DNA of 40,685 nucleotides from Bacteroidaceae bacterium (GTDB taxonomy: Bacteria; Bacteroidota; Bacteroidia; Bacteroidales; Bacteroidaceae), in NCBI GenBank assembly GCA_017617575.1, contig JAFZVY010000041.1:1-40685 (forward strand), given 5' to 3'. Positions 2,856 to 40,280 of the stretch are shown in pieces. A model generated the notes under the pieces. The model ran no database searches. It saw nothing but the letters and a program-made list of their open reading frames with translations, and was not told where the DNA came from. A program made the translations under genes and the position numbers. Each line of letters starts with the position of its first letter. Within the stretch, counting starts at the first letter, position 1.

Positions 2856-4682
2856 TTATTTGATAATTACTTTCTTTGTCACTCCGTTCTTGCGCACGAG
2901 GTACACACCCTTGTTGCTTGGTGTGGTCTTTGTTCCGCTGAGAGTGAAGTATTCTGTTGTGTTGTTGTCTGTTGTTACGTCGGCGATGCCTGTCCAGTCC
3001 ATTTCCACGCCTCCGCCCATGAACTTGAAGGAGATGAGTCCGTCCTTCTCCTTGATGTCTGTGATAGGCTTATGGAGGTAGTATGTGTCGTCAGTGTTCT
3101 TGTTGAAGAGCTTGCCACCGTAGTTGGTGTGTGAGTCATCCGTGAACTTGGTGACGTTGCTGCTACCAGGGAATAGCTGCTTGGCAAGTGTTGTTCCTTC
3201 CACGCTGTAGTTACTCTTTGTACGTTTGCCGTAGCTACCGTTTGCAGGGACGACAGACATGTGCATGTGGTCGTGGGAGTAGTTCACCGCATTGTAGTAC
3301 CATGACTCTTCGTCATAGTCAATGTGGTAGATGAGGAGTCCACTGATGCCTGTGCTTCTATATACATACTTGTACCATGGGTCTGTGTCCTGACGGTTCT
3401 CAAGGAAGAAATACTCGTTGCGGTTGGCATCGTTGTAGATGATGTATGCAATAGGAGCATCGCCAAGACAAGGCATATTAGTCACGGTGCAAGGCTCTGT
3501 GAGTTCTATTGGGTCAAGCCATCCTGCAAACCATCGCTCGTAGGCTGTGTAGCCACAAGGTGCCTCACCGTGGGCATCAGGACCGTTGGAAGAACCTACG
3601 CACATAAGGTCATAGACGTGCATTCCGAATGCGTAGTCGTTTTCTGCCGTGCAATAGAGGTCAGGCAAGCCGAGGCAGTGGCTGAACTCATGGCAGGCAG
3701 TACCGATGCCGTCCATGTCGTAGGTGTCGGCATCTGCATATTCGCAACTCATGGCGTAGGTGTCAACCACGTAGTCGCCAATGTACAAGGGACCTTCGCC
3801 GTCGTTTATGTCTTCCTTGCCTTCCTGAAATGTCCATTCGTGTGGCCATATATAGCTGCTGCCAGCACCTGTGTGCTCACCAGGACCTGCATAGACAAAG
3901 AACACCTGCTCTATCTCGGAGTCACCGTTCCAGTCGTAGAGGGAGAAGTCTATGTCGTCGCTTGCCTTCTTGATTATCTCCTGTGCAAGTTCGCAGGTGT
4001 GCATATCGCTGCTGCTCTGTATGTCGTTCTTGCCATAGTACTTGTAGCTCTTTGATGCCGTGTAAGGACCTATGACGTCAAACTCAAGGTCGAACTTACC
4101 ATAGCTCTGGGCGTAGAAGTAGTCATGTACAGAACCTGCACAGCCATTCTTGCTGTAACCCACCTTGTTGAACATATTGTTGTACTCATCCCTTGTGTGT
4201 CCGCTCCTGAACTTTAGGTCGGAGAACTGCACAAGGATGACGAGGCCGCGCTTATTGCCCATGTAGGAAGAGGCCTTGCCTATTATGCCGCGGCGACCAG
4301 TCATGGCTGGCGATTTGCTTACTCTTGCTGCATTACGCTTTCTTGCGCGTGACGACCATGCGGAACTGATGTCCTCCTTGGCGTTGGCAGAAGCGATGTA
4401 TTCCTTCTCGCTCTCGGAGCGCAAGGCTTCGTCGTGGGCGAGGATGGAAGAGGCGGATATCTTGCCGTCGGCAACTGTTGCGTAGAAATAAGAGCCATCG
4501 CTCTCTACCACTGGCATTCCGTCCGTAGTTGAAAGGTAATGAAGTGACTCATCTCCGTTGAGGGTGAGCGTAAGGCTTGTGCCGTCACTTTGTGTGACGG
4601 TAAAGGTAACCCGTTTGGATGGGATGGCAAGGCAGAACAGGCAGCTTGCCATAAATAAAGATGTCAATAATATTCTTTTCAT
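2856..4682 (-). CDS. M6 family secreted metalloprotease
   Basis: A 608-residue exported zinc protease of the M6 (immune inhibitor A-like) family. It starts with a signal peptide (MKRILLTSLFMASCLFCLA). A region with many charged residues follows, which may be a propeptide, then the catalytic domain with HEFSHCLGLPD around residue 330 (the HExxHxxGxxD metzincin-type zinc motif). The last residues, GVYLVRKNGVTKKVIIK, resemble a short type IX secretion sorting domain (type A), in which a GxYxxKxxxxxxKxxxK pattern is usual. This suggests surface delivery or release. It is probably monocistronic, with a repeat 2 bp after the stop and a 555-bp upstream gap. Substrate is unknown. Confidence 0.9.
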   Translation of the reverse strand: MKRILLTSLFMASCLFCLAIPSKRVTFTVTQSDGTSLTLTLNGDESLHYLSTTDGMPVVESDGSYFYATVADGKISASSILAHDEALRSESEKEYIASANAKEDISSAWSSRARKRNAARVSKSPAMTGRRGIIGKASSYMGNKRGLVILVQFSDLKFRSGHTRDEYNNMFNKVGYSKNGCAGSVHDYFYAQSYGKFDLEFDVIGPYTASKSYKYYGKNDIQSSSDMHTCELAQEIIKKASDDIDFSLYDWNGDSEIEQVFFVYAGPGEHTGAGSSYIWPHEWTFQEGKEDINDGEGPLYIGDYVVDTYAMSCEYADADTYDMDGIGTACHEFSHCLGLPDLYCTAENDYAFGMHVYDLMCVGSSNGPDAHGEAPCGYTAYERWFAGWLDPIELTEPCTVTNMPCLGDAPIAYIIYNDANRNEYFFLENRQDTDPWYKYVYRSTGISGLLIYHIDYDEESWYYNAVNYSHDHMHMSVVPANGSYGKRTKSNYSVEGTTLAKQLFPGSSNVTKFTDDSHTNYGGKLFNKNTDDTYYLHKPITDIKEKDGLISFKFMGGGVEMDWTGIADVTTDNNTTEYFTLSGTKTTPSNKGVYLVRKNGVTKKVIIK

Positions 4683-4988: not shown

Positions 4989-5237
4989 AATGGAAATTCG
5001 TGCAAAACCAAAAGTCTTATTTTGTACCAAATTATTTTTTAATCATCACTTATAAGAAATTTTACCTTCGGTGAGAAAAGTTCTTTAATTTTCCAAATTT
5101 TCGTTCACCCCAAACCACTTTGCGATGGACATCCGTCTCTTTTACTCCACTTTAACTACTTTTTAACTCCTCTTTAACTCCTTTACTTGACTCCTTGCAA
5201 GTAGCGTCAGCTGAACTTGCGAGACTTGAATGGATAT

Positions 5238-7327: not shown

Positions 7328-8380
7328 TTACCTTCTACGATTGGAGAATATCACCCATATCACGACTGGTGCGCCTATGAGCGAGGTGACGGAGTTGACG
7401 GGCAACGCACCTTCTGCCCCCGGTATTCGTGCTATGAGGTTACACGCCAAGGCAAGCAACGCGCCTGTGAGGAGTGATGCAGGCATGATGATGCGGTGGT
7501 CAGCTGTGCGGAACAGTCCTCTTGCAAGGTGCGGCACGGCAAGTCCGAGGAATGATATTGGGCCGCAGAAAGCCGTGCATATAGCCACGAGGAAACCAGA
7601 CGAAAGGATGATGCAAACCCTTGCTTGTGCCACGTTAAGTCCAAGGTTCTGGGCATAGTTCTCGCCAAGCAGTAGCATGTTGAGTGGCTTGATGAGAAGC
7701 ATGGCTGCCGCCAAGAGTACCACCATGATTCCGGCAAACAAGCTTATCTGTGACGATGACACGCTTGCAAACGAGCCTAAGCCCCAGATGGTGTAGGCGT
7801 GTATGTCCTCTGGAGGACTGAAATACTTGAGTATGCTGATTATGGCATTTGCTATGTAGCCAATCATTACTCCCACGATAAGGAGAGTCACGTTGCCCTT
7901 CACGGCTCTTGCCATCATGGCTATAATGCCCATGACTGATATTGCTCCTATGGCTGCCGCCACGGTTATAGCCACGTTTCCGTAGAGCCCGAGGCTACTC
8001 ATTGCCTTGCCTCCTATAGCTCCGGAGAGAAGTATGAGAAGAGCCACGCCGAGGCTTGCTCCGTTGCTCACTCCCAGTACTGAAGGGCCTGCAAGAGGAT
8101 TGCGGAATACCGTCTGCATCTCAAGGCCTGCCACGGAGAGACCAGCACCAGCTATTATGGCTGTCATCGCCTGTGGAATGCGTGTCTTGAATATGATGTT
8201 ACTCCATATCTCGCCCATCTCTGTGTCCTGTGTCGGTTGACCCAGCACAATGCGTATGGCTTCCTCCACGGGTATCGGTACGGAACCCATGGCAATGTTG
8301 ATGATAAACATTGCAACGATTCCTAAGAATGCCACGACCATTACGGCTGTGGAGGAAAATATGGAGCGCTCTTCGTTCAT
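7328..8380 (-). CDS. ABC importer permease, FecCD/BtuC family
   Basis: Inner-membrane subunit of 350 residues with about ten membrane segments. Family motifs include NPLAGPSVLGVSNGASLGVA near residues 94-113 and the C-terminal GPISFLGLAVPHLAR, which forms part of the contact with the ATPase. Its ATG overlaps the stop of cbiET (ATGA, 4 bp), so the two are translationally coupled. No substrate-binding protein or TonB receptor gene is present in the window. Coupling to cbiET suggests a corrinoid substrate (BtuC role). Confidence 0.9.
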   Translation of the reverse strand: MNEERSIFSSTAVMVVAFLGIVAMFIINIAMGSVPIPVEEAIRIVLGQPTQDTEMGEIWSNIIFKTRIPQAMTAIIAGAGLSVAGLEMQTVFRNPLAGPSVLGVSNGASLGVALLILLSGAIGGKAMSSLGLYGNVAITVAAAIGAISVMGIIAMMARAVKGNVTLLIVGVMIGYIANAIISILKYFSPPEDIHAYTIWGLGSFASVSSSQISLFAGIMVVLLAAAMLLIKPLNMLLLGENYAQNLGLNVAQARVCIILSSGFLVAICTAFCGPISFLGLAVPHLARGLFRTADHRIIMPASLLTGALLALACNLIARIPGAEGALPVNSVTSLIGAPVVIWVIFSNRRR

Positions 8381-9636
8381 CTTGCAAATGTAATGATATT
8401 TATTGGATTGTGTTCATCAAGTACAACTCTGTTGTCCGAAATTATGCGTAAATTAAATTTTTTTATACTTTCGTAAACCAAATCGCGGCTATTTGATGAC
8501 ACAGAATTGATAACAAAGCGTGTATTTTCGCCAGTATGTGGCAAAACCTTGCCTACAATCTCCACCAGCTTGCCTCCGTGGCCACCTATGAACACGGCAT
8601 CAGGCGATGGGAGTGACGAGATGTCCGTATGGAGGAAATCGCCAATATGGATATTGATACCCGGAACGCCAAAGCGCCTCATGTTCTTGTTGATGATAGC
8701 CTCGCACTCTGGGCGTATCTCGAAACTCTCCACATGCAGGCGTGGGCAGAGCATCTTAGCCTCTATGCTCACACTTCCTGTGCAGAAGCCTATGTCCCAG
8801 AATGTACGTGCATTCACGATGTCGAGTGCAGAGAGTGTGACAAGGCGTATTGGTGCCTTCGTAATCATCTTTGCACGTCCGTCAAGCAACTCGAACTCAC
8901 TTTCAGGAATGCCAAAGTGACGAGGCTTGTCATGTGTCTTGCGAAGGATGATGCAGTTGGGTGACAGAAATGCCCCCCAGCCCCCGAAGGGGGCGTCCGT
9001 TCGGGGCACATCTTCACATTCTCTTTTAAACCATTTCTCTGTTTCCGGATGGCTGCCCCCTTCGGGGGTTAGGGGGCCAGTTACCCTTTCCTTCTCCTCG
9101 TTTCCCAAGCACTCGCCCACGGTCATGTCGTAGTTGTCGTAGCCGTACTCCAGCATCCTCTGCCATATTGCTTCGGGTGTCTTGTTCTTGTCTGTAAGGC
9201 ATCCGATGAGGCTTTCGCCATTGATAAGTGCCTCGTCCAGTTTGTCCCAAGGACGACCAGTGAGAGATACGACGTGCATGTCCTGATAGGGTAGGCACAT
9301 ACGGTGTGCCAACATCTGTAGGGAGTTGAAGTAGGGGAGTACCTTGACGTTGCAATCAGGTACCTCCCTCTGTATTGTAGATGCAAAGCCAAAGAAGAGA
9401 GGGTCGCCAGATGCGAAGATGACTATGTCCTCATACTCCTTGTATTGCTCAAACACGTTTGAGAGGGGTACGGTAATGTCAATCCACACGGCATCCTCAG
9501 GAAGGAAGTCGTGCATTATCTCATGGTGACGCTTGCCACCGCTGAACACCTTTCCCGTCCTTATGATATCAAGGGTGCGTGGCTCAAACCATTGCTCCCT
9601 CGCATCACTTATTCCTATGACTGTGCAACGTATCAT
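8377..9636 (-). CDS. cbiET: Fused CbiE-CbiT: cobalt-precorrin-7 C5-methyltransferase / precorrin-6B C15-methyltransferase (decarboxylating)
   Basis: A 419-residue fusion of two SAM-dependent enzymes of corrin-ring assembly (CobL-like). The N-terminal CbiE part (about 1-200) has VIGISDAREQWF, FASGDPLFFG and the TVGECLGNEEKERV region. The C-terminal CbiT part (about 240-419) has a Rossmann methyltransferase core with WDIGFCTGSVSIEA and FIGGHGGKL. Between KERV and SPNCIIL about 37 residues are encoded by a GC-rich palindromic element (8972-9077) that stays in frame; homologues normally have a much shorter linker there. The flanking conserved motifs are intact, so the enzyme is probably functional. 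It overlaps the permease gene by 4 bp and follows the cobJ-cobH gene by 170 bp. Confidence 0.93.
   Translation of the reverse strand: MIRCTVIGISDAREQWFEPRTLDIIRTGKVFSGGKRHHEIMHDFLPEDAVWIDITVPLSNVFEQYKEYEDIVIFASGDPLFFGFASTIQREVPDCNVKVLPYFNSLQMLAHRMCLPYQDMHVVSLTGRPWDKLDEALINGESLIGCLTDKNKTPEAIWQRMLEYGYDNYDMTVGECLGNEEKERVTGPLTPEGGSHPETEKWFKRECEDVPRTDAPFGGWGAFLSPNCIILRKTHDKPRHFGIPESEFELLDGRAKMITKAPIRLVTLSALDIVNARTFWDIGFCTGSVSIEAKMLCPRLHVESFEIRPECEAIINKNMRRFGVPGINIHIGDFLHTDISSLPSPDAVFIGGHGGKLVEIVGKVLPHTGENTRFVINSVSSNSRDLVYESIKKFNLRIISDNRVVLDEHNPINIITFAR
8972..9077. repeat. GC-rich palindromic element, copy A (inside cbiET)
   Basis: About 106 bp with inverted arms of about 34 bp. The left arm starts GCCCCCCAGCCCCCGAAGGG and the right arm, on the other strand, GCCCCCTAACCCCCGAAGGG. 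Each arm contains its own small palindrome CCCCCGAAGGGGG. The centre is AT-richer. On the cbiET strand it encodes GPLTPEGGSHP through to [10 protein letters not shown] without a stop. Confidence 0.9.
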
Positions 9637-23412: not shown

Positions 23413-24012
23413 ATTTAATCTGTTTCAGATTTCAAATTTATAATCTATGCGTCCCGAACGCTACGTCCCCGAAGGCATCGATTTGAGATTATAGATTTGA
23501 CGTTTAATTCCAATATTTCGGTGCAAAGTTAATGTTTTTATGTCAGAATCTGTTGTGGGGATAAGAATAATAGTATGTGTGACTAAACAAAATGTGAACA
23601 AAATGTTGCATGATTCTCACAAAAAATATATACCTTTGCTTTTGGTTACTTGATAATTTGGGAAACGAAAATTAAGAATATTAAGGAAAATTATTGTTTC
23701 TTAAAAAACACAGAGGACACAGAGAACTCAGAGGGCAAGATTAAATTGTTTTCTTTTGTTTTTCCAATTGGCGCACGATGCGCAGGAAAGGAATAATGTG
23801 AAGATTTCCTCCCTACGGTCAGAGAGAATAGTTGGATTAAAGGTTGGTAAGATTACCTTCGGTGAGAAAAGTTGGTAATTTAGTCGCCCATGGCGACGGG
23901 TTCTAAAAAATCTTTATGCCAAATTTTCTTTAATTTTTTTAATTTTCGTTCTTAAAAAGATGTCAGCGAAAATGAACATGATGTTTAACTTGAAAATAAA
24001 AACAGAATAGAT
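23413..24012. repeat. 600-bp gap with mosaic repeats and a promoter
   Basis: Between the divergent thioesterase and udp genes. It holds an inverted repeat CAAATTTATAATCTAT with GATTATAGATTTG (about 23432-23499), a plus-strand -7 box TACCTTTG at 23631-23638, then repeat modules: CACAGAGGACACAGAG (23709), CTCCCTACGGTCAGAGAGAA (about 23810), GATTACCTTCGGTGAGAA (23850) and TAGTCGCCCATGGCGACGG (23880). The last three recur in 39885-40180. No gene is seen. Confidence 0.65.
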
Positions 24013-33247: not shown

Positions 33248-33278
33248 TTGTCTGTTTGAGTATAAAGTGCTACTTTTG
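33248..33278 (+). promoter_or_regulatory. Promoter of the riboswitch-carboxylase operon
   Basis: TTG at 33248-33250, 20 nt, then TACTTTTG at 33271-33278. The predicted start of transcription falls a few bases before the riboswitch. Confidence 0.7.
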
Positions 33279-33284
33279 CCACCG

Positions 33285-33470
33285 CATTTGGTTCCCCCTA
33301 CGTGTAAAAAAGAGCGGAAAGTGGGGCTAAGATGGGAACGCAGTGAAATTCTGCGACATTACCCGATGCTGTGAGTCCTTATTTCGAGGGCGGCGTATAA
33401 ATTAGGAGCCACTGGCCATGAAAAGCTGGGAAGGTAACGTCGTCAAGGGATTAAGTCAGAAGACCTGCCA
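33285..33470 (+). ncRNA. Cobalamin (B12) riboswitch upstream of the acyl-CoA carboxylase operon
   Basis: Conserved core segments appear in the correct order: GGTTCCCCC, GGGGCTAAGATGGGAACGCA with GTGAAATTCTGCG, ACCCGATGCTGTGA, the B12 box GAGCCACTGGCC, GGGAAGG and GTCAGAAGACCTGCC. This matches the AdoCbl-class riboswitch. After it a hairpin with arms TTGTC and GACAA (about 33489-33510) lies before the start codon at 33532 and may form the expression platform. The expected effect is lower expression when cobalamin is plentiful. Confidence 0.92.
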
Positions 33471-33531
33471 TTTGCCTTAGAAGTGAATTGTCTGCGGGAA
33501 TACGGACAACGGAATCTGACATATATAGAAC

Positions 33532-35043
33532 ATGATTAGAAAGATTTTAGTAGCTAATCGTGGCGAGATTGCAATACGTGTCATGCGTAGTTGCTATGAG
33601 ATGGGCATACGTTCCGTTGCCGTCTATAGTACAGCTGACCGTTTGTCTCGTCATGTGCTCTTTGCGAATGAGGCAGAGTGCATCGGTGGCGTTGCAAGCA
33701 GCGACAGTTACCTGAATATTGACCATATCATTGCAGCTGCAAAGAAGCACAAGGTCGACGCAATTCACCCCGGTTATGGTTTTCTTAGTGAAAATGCAGA
33801 GTTCGCTCGTCGTTGCGAGGCGGAAGGCTTCATCTTTATTGGTCCACGTCCAGAGACTATGGAGGACATGGGTGACAAGATACGTGCCCGCATCAAGATG
33901 ATTGAGGCTGGTGTGCCTGTAGTTCCGGGAACACAGGAGCAGCTCAACTCTGGCGAAGAAGCAGTGGAAGTATGCCGTAAGATTGGTTTCCCAGTAATGC
34001 TCAAGGCATCACAAGGTGGTGGTGGTAAGGGTATGCGCCTTATCGAGCGTGAGGAAGACGTAATCGAGATGTACAACGCTGCCAAGAGTGAGGCAATGGC
34101 TGGCTTTGGCGATGATACTGTTTACATCGAGAAGTTCGTCGAGGAGCCACACCATATCGAGTTCCAGATTCTCGGTGACAAGCACGGAAACGTCATTCAC
34201 CTCTACGACCGTGAGTGCTCTGTTCAGCGTCGTCACCAGAAGGTAGTGGAGGAGAGTCCATCACCATTCATCGGTCAGGAACTCCGCGAAGAGATGGGAC
34301 GCAAGGCAGTAGCAGCAGCCAAGGCTGTAGGTTATGTAGGTGCAGGAACAATCGAGTTCCTCGTTGACAAGCACCACAACTTCTACTTCCTTGAGATGAA
34401 CACACGTCTTCAGGTGGAGCACCCAATCACAGAGGAAGTGGTAGGCATGGATCTCGTTAAGGAGCAGATTCGCATTGCCGACGGTCTTCCACTCTCACGC
34501 AAGCAGGACGAGATACAGCAGAGAGGCCACGCTATCGAGTGCCGTATCTGTGCAGAGGATACAGAGAACAACTTCATGCCTTCGCCAGGTGTCATCAAGC
34601 AGTTGACTGAGCCACACGGTATCGGTACGCGTATTGACTCTTACGTATATGAGGGCTACGAGATTCCTGTACACTACGATCCAATGATTGGTAAGCTCAT
34701 CGTATGGGCAACAACACGTGAGTACGCCATCGAGCGTATGCGCCGTGTGCTCTATGAGTACAAGATTACGGGTCTCACAACAAACATACGTTATCTCCGT
34801 CGTATCATTGATGCACCAGACTTCAAGAACGGCGACTATAATACATACTTCATCGAGCGTAACCAGGACCGTCTCCGTCCACGCCCAGGATTCAAGAACG
34901 ATAGCGAGACAATGGCTGTCATTGCCGCTTACATCGACTATCTCATGAACCTTGAGGAGAACACTCCTAATCCTCCAACAGATGGTACTGCCATCAACCG
35001 CTGGAGAGCATTCGGACTTCAGAAGGGAGTATTGAGAGTGTAG
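33532..35043 (+). CDS. accC: Biotin carboxylase subunit of an acyl-CoA carboxylase
   Basis: A 503-residue ATP-grasp enzyme that carboxylates biotin on the carrier protein, using ATP and bicarbonate. Motifs: MIRKILVANRGEIAIRVMRS at the start, GVPVVPG, QGGGGKGMRL near residue 160, EEPHHIEFQILGD, the YDRECSVQRRHQK segment and EMNTRLQVEHPITE. The gene is first of three (biotin carboxylase, carrier, carboxyltransferase), so it belongs to an acyl-CoA carboxylase. The B12 riboswitch in front suggests propionyl-CoA as the substrate. Its TAG stop touches the left arm of a GC-rich palindromic element. Confidence 0.93.
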   Translation: MIRKILVANRGEIAIRVMRSCYEMGIRSVAVYSTADRLSRHVLFANEAECIGGVASSDSYLNIDHIIAAAKKHKVDAIHPGYGFLSENAEFARRCEAEGFIFIGPRPETMEDMGDKIRARIKMIEAGVPVVPGTQEQLNSGEEAVEVCRKIGFPVMLKASQGGGGKGMRLIEREEDVIEMYNAAKSEAMAGFGDDTVYIEKFVEEPHHIEFQILGDKHGNVIHLYDRECSVQRRHQKVVEESPSPFIGQELREEMGRKAVAAAKAVGYVGAGTIEFLVDKHHNFYFLEMNTRLQVEHPITEEVVGMDLVKEQIRIADGLPLSRKQDEIQQRGHAIECRICAEDTENNFMPSPGVIKQLTEPHGIGTRIDSYVYEGYEIPVHYDPMIGKLIVWATTREYAIERMRRVLYEYKITGLTTNIRYLRRIIDAPDFKNGDYNTYFIERNQDRLRPRPGFKNDSETMAVIAAYIDYLMNLEENTPNPPTDGTAINRWRAFGLQKGVLRV

Positions 35044-35197
35044 CCCCCTAACCCCCGAAGGGGGCAGCCATTCGGAACATACCATTATATAATAATAGTG
35101 GCTTTCCTAATGGATGCAATCGGGGACAAGAAACTGATTTTAATGCCATCCACCCCCACAGTTCCGGATGGCCGCCCCCTTTGGGGGCTCGGGGGGC
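35043..35197 (+). repeat. GC-rich palindromic element, copy C (between accC and the carrier gene)
   Basis: The left arm begins GCCCCCTAACCCCCGAAGGG and the right arm ends TTTGGGGGCTCGGGGGGC; the centre is longer than in copies A and B, giving about 155 bp. It starts at the last base of the accC stop and ends 3 bp before the carrier ATG. GGGGGG is the only purine-rich tract near that start. Confidence 0.9.
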
Positions 35198-35200
35198 TTT

Positions 35201-35719
35201 ATGGAAGTACAGGTAGGAAATAAGATATGCGAAGTTACCTTGCTCAACAAGGAGGGTAACAATGTCAAGATAGACATCGACGGCAAGGTGTATGACGTTG
35301 ACGTGGCAATGCTACAGAACGGCACTTGTTCCATCCTCTATGATGGAAACTCATACAATGCCGAGTTGGTGAGAAATAGCGCAAGCAAGCACTATCGTGT
35401 GAACCTCAACTATTCAACTTACCAGATTGACATGCTTGACTCACAGGCAAAATACATGAAGATGCGCAAGCGCGGTGCACAGGATGGTGCACAGGCAGAC
35501 GTCATCGCAGCTCCAATGCCTTGTAAGATTGTGAAGGTTTACGTCAAGCCGGGCGACGAGCTCAAGGCTGGCGACACAGTCCTCACTATGGAGGCAATGA
35601 AGATGCAGTCAAACTACAAGGTTAATGCCGACTGCAAGGTTAAGGATGTGCTCGTTGCAGAGGGCGACAGCGTAGGCGTAGAACAAACATTAATTAGATT
35701 GGAGGTTAACAATGGCTAA
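35201..35719 (+). CDS. accB: Biotin carboxyl carrier protein
   Basis: A 172-residue carrier from the ATG at 35201. The biotin lysine is K134 in EAMKMQ, 39 residues from the C-terminus, as expected. The C-terminal part is a lipoyl/biotinyl fold (VIAAPMPCKIVKVYVKPGDE). An earlier ATG at 35168 lies inside the palindromic element and would add MAAPFGGSGGF; MEVQVGNKICEV is the more likely native start. The stop overlaps the carboxyltransferase start by 8 bp. It works with the biotin carboxylase and the carboxyltransferase as one complex. Confidence 0.93.
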   Translation: MEVQVGNKICEVTLLNKEGNNVKIDIDGKVYDVDVAMLQNGTCSILYDGNSYNAELVRNSASKHYRVNLNYSTYQIDMLDSQAKYMKMRKRGAQDGAQADVIAAPMPCKIVKVYVKPGDELKAGDTVLTMEAMKMQSNYKVNADCKVKDVLVAEGDSVGVEQTLIRLEVNNG

Positions 35720-38660: not shown

Positions 38661-39773
38661 TTAGAAGTATTTCGTTATCTCCGCGTGTTGGAAGTTATCC
38701 ATCTCGTTTATCATGTTGACGGCTGATTGCAGGATAGGGTAGGCACATATAGCACCAGTGCCTTCGCCCAGTCGGAGACCGAGGGAGAGGAGAGGCTCTG
38801 CACCCATGGCGTCCAGCATGAGGCGGTGTCCCGACTCGTCGCCACAATGACCGAAGACGGCGTATTCCATCACGTTCCTGTCTATCTGCGATGCGCCAAG
38901 CATGCAAGCCGTCATGATGAAACCGTCAACAAGCACTATCATCCTGTGTTCTGCCGCACGCAACATTCCGCCTATGGCTGCTACCATCTCATAGCCACCG
39001 AAGTAGGCAAGGAGCCCCCCATCCCCCGAAGGGGGCGGCCATCCGGATATCAATCTATCTTCACTTATATTATTGTTGTGCGTATTCTCTTTGTCCCGAA
39101 TGGCCGCCCCCTTTGGGGGACGGGGGGCCAATGCTTTGGATAGCACCTCATATTTATGTTTTATCCCTTCGTTGTTAAGTCCTGCACCGGCACCCACGCA
39201 CTTGTCGAGAGGTATGCCGAGGAAAAGGTGCATCCAGATGCTTGAAGGTGATGTGTTGGCAATGCCCATCTCGCCAAAGCTGATGACGTTGCAACCCTCG
39301 GCGTGACACTTGTCCACCATCTCTGCACCTACGGCAAGGGCACGCTCATACTCCTCCTGCGTCATGGCAGGCTCATGGAGGAAGTTACGTGTGCCGTGTG
39401 CAATCTTGCGGTCGATGATGTGCGGATAACGCTCATGGTCGAAGTCATAGTCCACGCCCACGTCCACCACGTGAAGCTTGAAGCCGTGCTGACGGCAGAA
39501 CATATTCACGCCACCGCCGCCGCGTCCGAAGTTTATCATCTGTTGCCACGTCACCTCACGAGGACTGACACTCACGCCCTCACGCTCTATGCCGTGGTCA
39601 CCGCCAAAGAGGATGTGACACGGATGCTGTAGCTTAGGCGTAAGCGTATGCTGTATAAGCCCAATCTGAAGAGCGAGCGACTCAAGTCGTCCGAGTGAGC
39701 CTTTCGGCTTGTTGAGGTTGTCAATCTTTTCCTGGAGAACAGGTATGAAAGACTTATCTAAGGTCTGTATCAT
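38661..39773 (-). CDS. cobT: Nicotinate-nucleotide:dimethylbenzimidazole phosphoribosyltransferase CobT
   Basis: A 370-residue enzyme that makes alpha-ribazole phosphate for the lower ligand of B12. Motifs: [16 protein letters not shown] (the N-terminal pattern), [28 protein letters not shown] and LRLGEGTGA with the catalytic glutamate at about 337. Between KALA and [17 protein letters not shown] an insertion of about 38 residues is encoded by a GC-rich palindromic element (39014-39128) and remains in frame; homologues have a short stretch there. All catalytic motifs are intact. A -7-like box (TACCTTTG on the minus strand at 39797-39790) is very close to the start. Confidence 0.94.
39014..39128. 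repeat. GC-rich palindromic element, copy B (inside cobT)
   Basis: About 115 bp. Left arm GCCCCCCATCCCCCGAAGGG onwards; right arm, on the other strand, GGCCCCCCGTCCCCCAAAGGG. It shares ATCTTCAC and ATTCTCTTT in the centre with copy A. On the cobT strand it reads [13 protein letters not shown] through to [11 protein letters not shown]. This is a different reading frame of the arm from the one used in cbiET. Confidence 0.9.
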
Positions 39774-39884
39774 CGTATTAAGTTTTTTGCAAAGGTAGTC
39801 TTTTTAGTTATGAGCAAAAAATAACTTGGAATATTTTTCGAACTGTATGGTTGAATTTTATACCCCACGGAGAAAGCAGAGTTT

Positions 39885-40185
39885 TTTAGAACCCGTCGCC
39901 AAGGGCGACTAAATTACCAATCTGCGCAATCTTTGAACCAACTGTTCTCTCTGACCGTAGGGAGGAAATCTTACATTATTTTTAGAACGAAAATTTAAAA
40001 AAATAAAGAACTTTTCTCACCGAAGGTAAAATTGTTTTTTATTGTTTTTGTTCTGTTTCCCTTCTTGTTTTTCCAATTGGCGCCTTAGCGCATAAAAAAT
40101 GGTAAGATTACCTTCGGTGAGAATAGTTGGATTAAAGATTGCGCAGATTGGTAATTTAGCCTTCGCCAGAAGGCGGGTTCCAAAA
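39885..40185. repeat. Mosaic repeat block
   Basis: Modules found here: ACCCGTCGCCAAGGGCGACTA (about 39891), CTCTGACCGTAGGGAGGAAA (about 39950), CTCACCGAAGGTAA (40016, inverted), GATTACCTTCGGTGAGAATA (about 40107) and CCTTCGCCAGAAGGCG (about 40160). The same modules occur at 23810-23950 and in part at 5064-5105 and 26268. No gene is seen. Confidence 0.65.
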
Positions 40186-40280
40186 AAATGTATTCTACGT
40201 GGTTCCGTGGTGGGATTAAAAACAATAATTCGTTATGTTATAGCTTTTGTATAGAAAAGCCAAGTAGCCAGTACGTACGG

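Follow-up and report, generated by a model that had tools for sequence, protein, structure and literature searches.

Palindromic repeats that code for protein are best known from the obligate intracellular Rickettsiales, and the usual account of them is weak selection. Two described systems are among those closest to the repeat family presented here. In the available text of their sources, Rickettsia palindromic elements (RPEs) and their Wolbachia counterpart are palindromes of approximately 100-150 bp that occur between genes and also in frame within conserved genes, where they are tolerated (PMC2229807, PMC10969869). REP/BIME elements are described, in the available portions of one paper, as GC-rich hairpins of 20-40 nt that form pairs of opposite orientation, mainly in unidirectional or convergent gaps; they adjoin stop codons, often supply a TAG stop and are sometimes located in genes (PMC3733652). 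The same portions offer a precedent for a recurrent site, as different REPs lie at about the same position of recB in two Xanthomonas species (PMC3733652). The part of a further source available to us reports arrays of heptamers near start codons in Beggiatoaceae and Cyanobacteria and in a small number of Bacteroidetes (PMC4679880).

The window considered here is a stretch of 40,685 nucleotides from a Bacteroidaceae bacterium, whose genome is a metagenome-like draft of 3.38 Mb in 162 contigs and 86% complete. In it, cobT (38661..39773, minus strand) encodes nicotinate-nucleotide--dimethylbenzimidazole phosphoribosyltransferase, a protein of 370 amino acids, in a frame that stays intact across a palindromic element. 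Re-reading places the element at 39014..39128, as the initial annotation had it, with a length of 115 bp and no stop in the cobT frame. Two inverted arms, arm 1 at 39014..39047 (plus strand) and arm 2 at 39095..39128 (minus strand), enclose a unique middle at 39048..39094. The arms are GC-rich, about 34 nt in length and of the type GCCCCCnAnCCCCCRAAGGGGGCnGCCATnCGGA, and positions 39014-39046 are 91% complementary to 39096-39128 across 33 nt. The AT-rich middle of 47 nt has no match elsewhere in the window or in 46 fetched stretches (E 0.01); only the arms repeat. In cobT, the first base of the arm is codon base 1 (GCC CCC CGT, or APR...). The insert lies between conserved segments, as had been claimed: the match to TIGR03160 is split in two, and the best alignment to a PDB entry breaks there as well, running to residue 220 and restarting at 251. 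An Rfam search of the window gives nothing on the cobT element, its sole match being a cobalamin riboswitch (RF00174, 85.9 bits, 33272-33486, plus strand) ahead of the gene at 33532-35043. An integron attC site and an invertible promoter were considered for the cobT element and provisionally set aside.

Turning to the rest of the window, a second arm pair (8972..9077) occupies the CbiE-CbiT linker of a cbiET fusion (8377..9636, minus strand, 419 amino acids; CbiE 6-188, CbiT 258-379). Here the first base of the arm is codon base 2 (GGC CCC CTA ACC, or GPLT...), and the earlier reading of this copy as in-gene but in another frame than that of cobT is correct. The linker measures 38 amino acids in this genome and 62 in the nearest relative, G019, which holds the same arms in frame around another middle. 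In G003 it measures 14 amino acids with an arm-like APQPPKG, and in 27 other genomes 9-17. The CbiET linker was rejected as a genus-wide hotspot, the arm pair being present in only two of 30 genomes (this one and G019). The initial annotation had counted two copies, both within genes; these are real, and a third pair (35043..35196) is intergenic. Situated between the gene at 33532-35043 (plus strand) and a start at 35201 (plus strand), this third pair completes the TAG stop of the former with its first base and ends 4 bp before the latter. Further dispersed repeat families (ACCTTCGGTGAGAA and GGTCAGTGAGACC types), often in inverted pairs, are seen at 39880-40190, 5047-5106 and 23801-23966.

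Across the genome there are 67 arm-like matches and none for a reversed-pattern control, which bears out the earlier judgement that chance is unlikely; a shorter pattern gives 72 matches and its control one. When arms are scored at 16 or above in stretches picked by arm matches, a selection that misses degenerate arms, 78 arms in 53 clusters are obtained. Just five clusters are in predicted genes, namely cobT, cbiET, a cbiJ-cbiD fusion, a SpoU-type RNA methyltransferase and the N-terminus of an MFS transporter, though 79% of the bases in the fetched stretches, which were chosen around arms, are called coding by our own hexamer predictor. An excess of copies inside genes is thus absent. The outer end lies within 16 nt of a gene in 55 of the 70 intergenic arms with a neighbour (24/32 at starts, 31/38 at stops), some of the large distances being miscalls of that predictor, and random placement of 71 arms yields a mean of 5.6 and a maximum of 15 in 2000 draws. 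In eleven of the 31 stop-adjoining arms, the first G also serves as the final base of the stop codon. Gaps that bear arms are co-directional in 41 cases, convergent in three and divergent in one; the corresponding numbers for gaps without arms are 158, 24 and 27. Separate stretches of G019 with 70 arms place 33 of 67 within 16 nt (random mean 3.8, maximum 12), a result that is not fully independent because some of these placements were inherited by both genomes: for only 29 of the 51 elements in G019 are the flanks missing from the element stretches of this genome. One arm of the G019 set is in a gene, again the SpoU-type methyltransferase; the set does not include the arm pairs that G019 carries in cbiET and cbiD.

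Several of these copies deserve individual mention. The SpoU-type RNA methyltransferase (L035 3111-3761 and L345 6784-7371, minus strand) carries an in-frame arm in both genomes, followed in this genome by a heptamer array. In the CbiJ-CbiD fusion (L041 2070-3968, arm at 3489), one arm and a heptamer array would be translated in frame. The CbiD loop is 52 amino acids long here, 40 in G019, where it is made of two arms, and 28 in G001; as a genus-wide hotspot it was rejected since 27 of 29 other genomes hold 7-14 amino acids and only G019 and G001 are also long. Corrinoid genes account for three of the five in-gene clusters (cobT, cbiET and cbiJ-cbiD), a striking share without explanation under a purely neutral reading. 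A single arm makes up part of an apparent signal peptide in the ORF MTKFLRILLTLCIASPFGGRGAAQSF of G003 (L178), and chimeric arms in L036, L039, L049, L058, L061 and L065 have the inner GGCCATCCGGA half fused to a TGACCGCAGGGAAGTAACGGGG-type repeat.

Taken together, the cobT element probably belongs to a non-autonomous, REP/MITE-like family of palindromic repeats in a rumen Bacteroidales lineage that dwells at gene seams and, rarely, in tolerant protein linkers. Its normal home would be the short spacer between co-directional genes, framed by an inverted pair of arms. The family most probably spreads by transposition-like insertion with help from a factor in trans and is kept where it is harmless; the rare in-gene copies would persist only where the linker is disordered and the new length keeps the frame. 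Among the features that speak against this, the middles are mostly unique, which is uncommon for units that transpose. A search for transposases of the Y1/RAYT family (PF01797) in four genomes found no mobilising enzyme, and this genome, 86% complete, contains no member of that family. A link between RAYT and the arms was also rejected, as the PF01797 gene of G019 bears a different palindrome of its own. That Y1 transposase gene (L177), flanked by the palindrome CCGTAGGTTCTACGAACCCACGG, is probably a separate REP system.

Comparison with relatives reveals an empty site and a turnover of contents. At one place, G019 has a 124-bp element between GTAA and ATTATG while this genome reads GTAA AAT ATG, an empty site with a 3-bp spacer; no target-site duplication is seen at that one clean empty site. 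In comparisons with G001 and G003, four of 13 orthologous gaps are arm-free and short, the flank alignments lying 42-55 nt apart, and three of 13 have arms. Against G019, 25 of 30 paired elements could be placed and, by blastn coverage of this genome's element only, 11 are conserved (at least 90% of length), five are partly replaced and nine fall under 30%; identity of the flanking DNA is mostly 80-95%. On visual inspection, other repeats occupy the replaced places and begin at the same gene edges; many of them are inverted heptamer arrays. The content of the inserts turns over; the gene edges and the frame stay.

One possible, if tentative, explanation of this turnover is recombination between arms or other repeats, which would swap the contents of spacers and linkers and spread the family by conversion instead of transposition. 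The split of the 25 placed elements into conserved, partly replaced and replaced classes fits such a process, as do the cbiET linker with both arms kept around a different middle, and the cbiD loop with two arms in G019 and one arm plus a heptamer array here. However, two genomes cannot separate swapping from serial insertion and deletion, and a search of the stretches compared gave no copy that could have donated a swapped middle. Somewhat more doubtful is the idea that the spacer hairpins are functional, folding the spacer out of the mRNA to keep stop and start close, so that any repeat that can frame a spacer would be retained, with in-gene copies as a by-product. A single outer helix forms in the predicted fold of all 30 paired elements, but inverted repeats fold by construction. 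Spacers without GC arms lend further support: unrelated inverted repeats frame 26 of 101 co-directional spacers, each beating all 20 shuffles, as opposed to four of 20 convergent and none of 21 divergent spacers. Nevertheless, initiation could suffer from GC hairpins that lie 2-16 nt ahead of a start, and in-gene copies gain nothing from the folding of a spacer.

It is very unlikely that the element is selected for coding, that is, that selection cleared its arms of stops in every frame and so let it survive in genes. Some properties lean that way: two frames are in use, the cobT element is open in four of six frames and could be inverted with the cobT frame still open, and 51 of 78 arms (0.65) are open in all six frames versus 0.59 for dinucleotide shuffles. 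Over the six frames, though, the open fraction of the 78 arms is 0.904 and that of the shuffles 0.900, which leaves a special openness of the arms unsupported. Full elements are mostly closed; the 30 paired elements with their middles have 33 of 180 frames open, or 27 of 168 minus the two in-gene pairs, and random intergenic 115-mers have an open fraction of 0.129. Since stops are about as frequent in the arms as in shuffles, and so few clusters are in genes, a design for being read through is unsupported. By the refuting condition that the initial annotation itself set, the proposal that the element survives because it can be read fails in its strong form; it stands in its weak one, in which rare tolerated in-frame copies persist. 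The in-gene copies need no explanation beyond survivorship.

The cobT gene itself appears functional. It scores 398 bits against the CobT equivalog TIGR03160, above the cut-off of 319, with a match in two pieces of which 6-220 is the stronger; Pfam also identifies it as CobT. Outside the loop, dN/dS is 0.065 versus G019, 0.076 versus G001 and 0.093 versus G024, and for cbiET the value versus G019 is likewise 0.065. By this measure cobT is under purifying selection, and both genes seem, by sequence, to be functional. E337, the glutamate of the GEGTGA motif, which we take to be the catalytic residue of CobT, is invariant in 31 sequences. In an AlphaFold2 model (pTM 0.88), residues 219-247 have pLDDT below 50 and sit between helices 201-215 and 251-258, so the loop with the element models as disordered. 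Matches to CobT among plasmid records number 127, each below 60% identity. For comparison, 110 CobT loci were assembled: 30 of the same genus (one being this genome's own), plus the 80 best among 467 found in named genomes; they are mostly from rumen or gut Bacteroidales, one is titled Roseburia, and some genomes occur in both sets. A cobT that is decaying into a pseudogene, or that owes its form to misassembly, is barely credible, for while the assembly is a metagenome-like draft, G003 (74% complete) has only a cobT fragment (residues 12-110) and nine of 45 same-genus genomes have none, the full frame, the equivalog score and the dN/dS speak against it, as do the 110 loci, all of which have cobT open over 290 residues or more, whatever the loop.

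Among these loci and the window there are 99 distinct loops of 14-58 amino acids with a median of 18. The loop of this CobT has 41, and the statement that the element adds about 38 residues is therefore wrong in net terms. Arrays of 7-bp units are found in 28 of the 99 distinct loops, inverted repeats in 12 and either in 35, compared with one of 430 control segments drawn at random from the same cobT frames. The inverted repeats stem from different families. A CCCCTAAGTTAGGGG-type palindrome in cobT of L231 and L218 has 13 and four matches in the respective genomes, and a GGCGCCTTCGGCGCAATGG-type palindrome in cobT of L224 and L215 has seven and 76, cobT copies included; both types are absent from this genome (G000) and G019. 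The gene-edge rule is kept unevenly by these families, which weighs against the main reading. Intergenic copies with the outer gene within 16 nt number 7/7 in G045 and 2/2 in G046 for the CCCCTAAGTTAGGGG type, all at stops, and 0/4 in G047 and 8/25 in G048 for the GGCGCCTTCGGCGCAATGG type. Copies in predicted genes, again including cobT, number 5/12 (G045) and 1/3 (G046) for the former and 3/7 (G047) and 5/31 (G048) for the latter. Within cobT, a change of one unit in a 7-bp array (L217, L105, L245 and others) would shift the frame, a possible on/off switch.

Closer relatives add a further state, as the CobT of G019 (89% identity) has a heptamer-type loop without arms. The idea that the cobT middle is the old native loop framed by two arms was ruled out with a profile of 48 native loops, which in 25 leave-one-out tests picks up true native loops at p<0.05 in 92% of cases and fails here (shuffle p 0.54); the native signature is lost in G019 as well (p 0.59). 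With no trace of the native loop in the middle, the element has replaced the native inter-helix loop; translation would read through the insert and CobT would continue to work. The presence of unrelated repeat families in CobT loops indicates that one site was filled repeatedly, in frame at each locus examined. The loop is a recurrent landing site for unrelated repeats, a permissive and presumably neutral position that probably catches any repeat that happens to be active in the genome concerned. A broader proposition is unlikely to hold in full: that in rumen Bacteroidales, unrelated inverted repeats mark gene seams and a few linkers as exchangeable slots whose borders and frame are fixed and whose contents are swapped, the CobT 215-250 loop being one such slot in a core B12 enzyme, filled independently by unrelated palindromes and heptamer arrays.

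The seam-dwelling repeat family places coding palindromes in rumen Bacteroidales, where the host gene is under purifying selection, and one enzyme loop records many in-frame arrivals of unrelated repeats. Such a loop amounts to a natural experiment: it can show where proteins tolerate junk DNA, how frequent frame-keeping inserts are, and if one process drives turnover in spacers and linkers alike. As a practical caution, alignments of CobT, CbiET and CbiD from these bacteria include non-homologous loops.

With respect to known systems, no description of this arm family was found among the matches listed in a literature search that included Prevotella and Bacteroidetes and left subscription journals mostly outside its scope, and none, among the matches listed, of a single enzyme loop that unrelated repeats have filled time and again. 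BrickBuilt, a MITE of Porphyromonas gingivalis, is likewise from Bacteroidota and combines inverted ends with a tandem array or minisatellite; the available part of its description sets it apart through IS5-like ends and some target duplications, and no in-frame copies are seen there (PMC4596501). TAACTGA-type heptamer repeats are, in the available sections, 7-bp arrays just upstream of starts and rarely in ORFs (PMC4679880), whereas the units here are others, and a given spacer, or the CobT loop, may hold either such an array or GC arms. Like RPEs, the family places a palindromic repeat in frame in conserved genes (cobT, cbiET, cbiJ-cbiD, the SpoU-type methyltransferase and the MFS N-terminus). 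This likeness is one of kind only, in another phylum and another type of host. Nearly half of the RPE copies of R. conorii are in genes, as far as the available text goes (PMC10969869), compared with five of 53 clusters here, and RPEs are described as encoding a conserved peptide, whereas two frames are in use here. In addition, unlike RPEs, the intergenic copies lie at gene edges and one protein loop repeatedly takes unrelated repeats. The likeness to REP/BIME elements consists of short, multi-copy GC hairpins in inverted pairs, mostly intergenic, in contact with stop codons and seldom between divergent genes. In contrast to them, neither this genome nor G019 has a RAYT transposase flanked by the same repeat, and the tag is wanting, with GTAG at the outer junction of five of 78 arms and CGTC at none; within the arm or 6 nt around it, GTAG occurs in eight and CGTC in 23 of the 78. 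The arms also lie 2-16 nt before downstream starts, from which uni-REPs stand at varying distances according to the available portions of their source (PMC3733652). The cobT-element family thus works like RPEs and like REP/BIME elements, and the features in which it departs from each keep it outside both.
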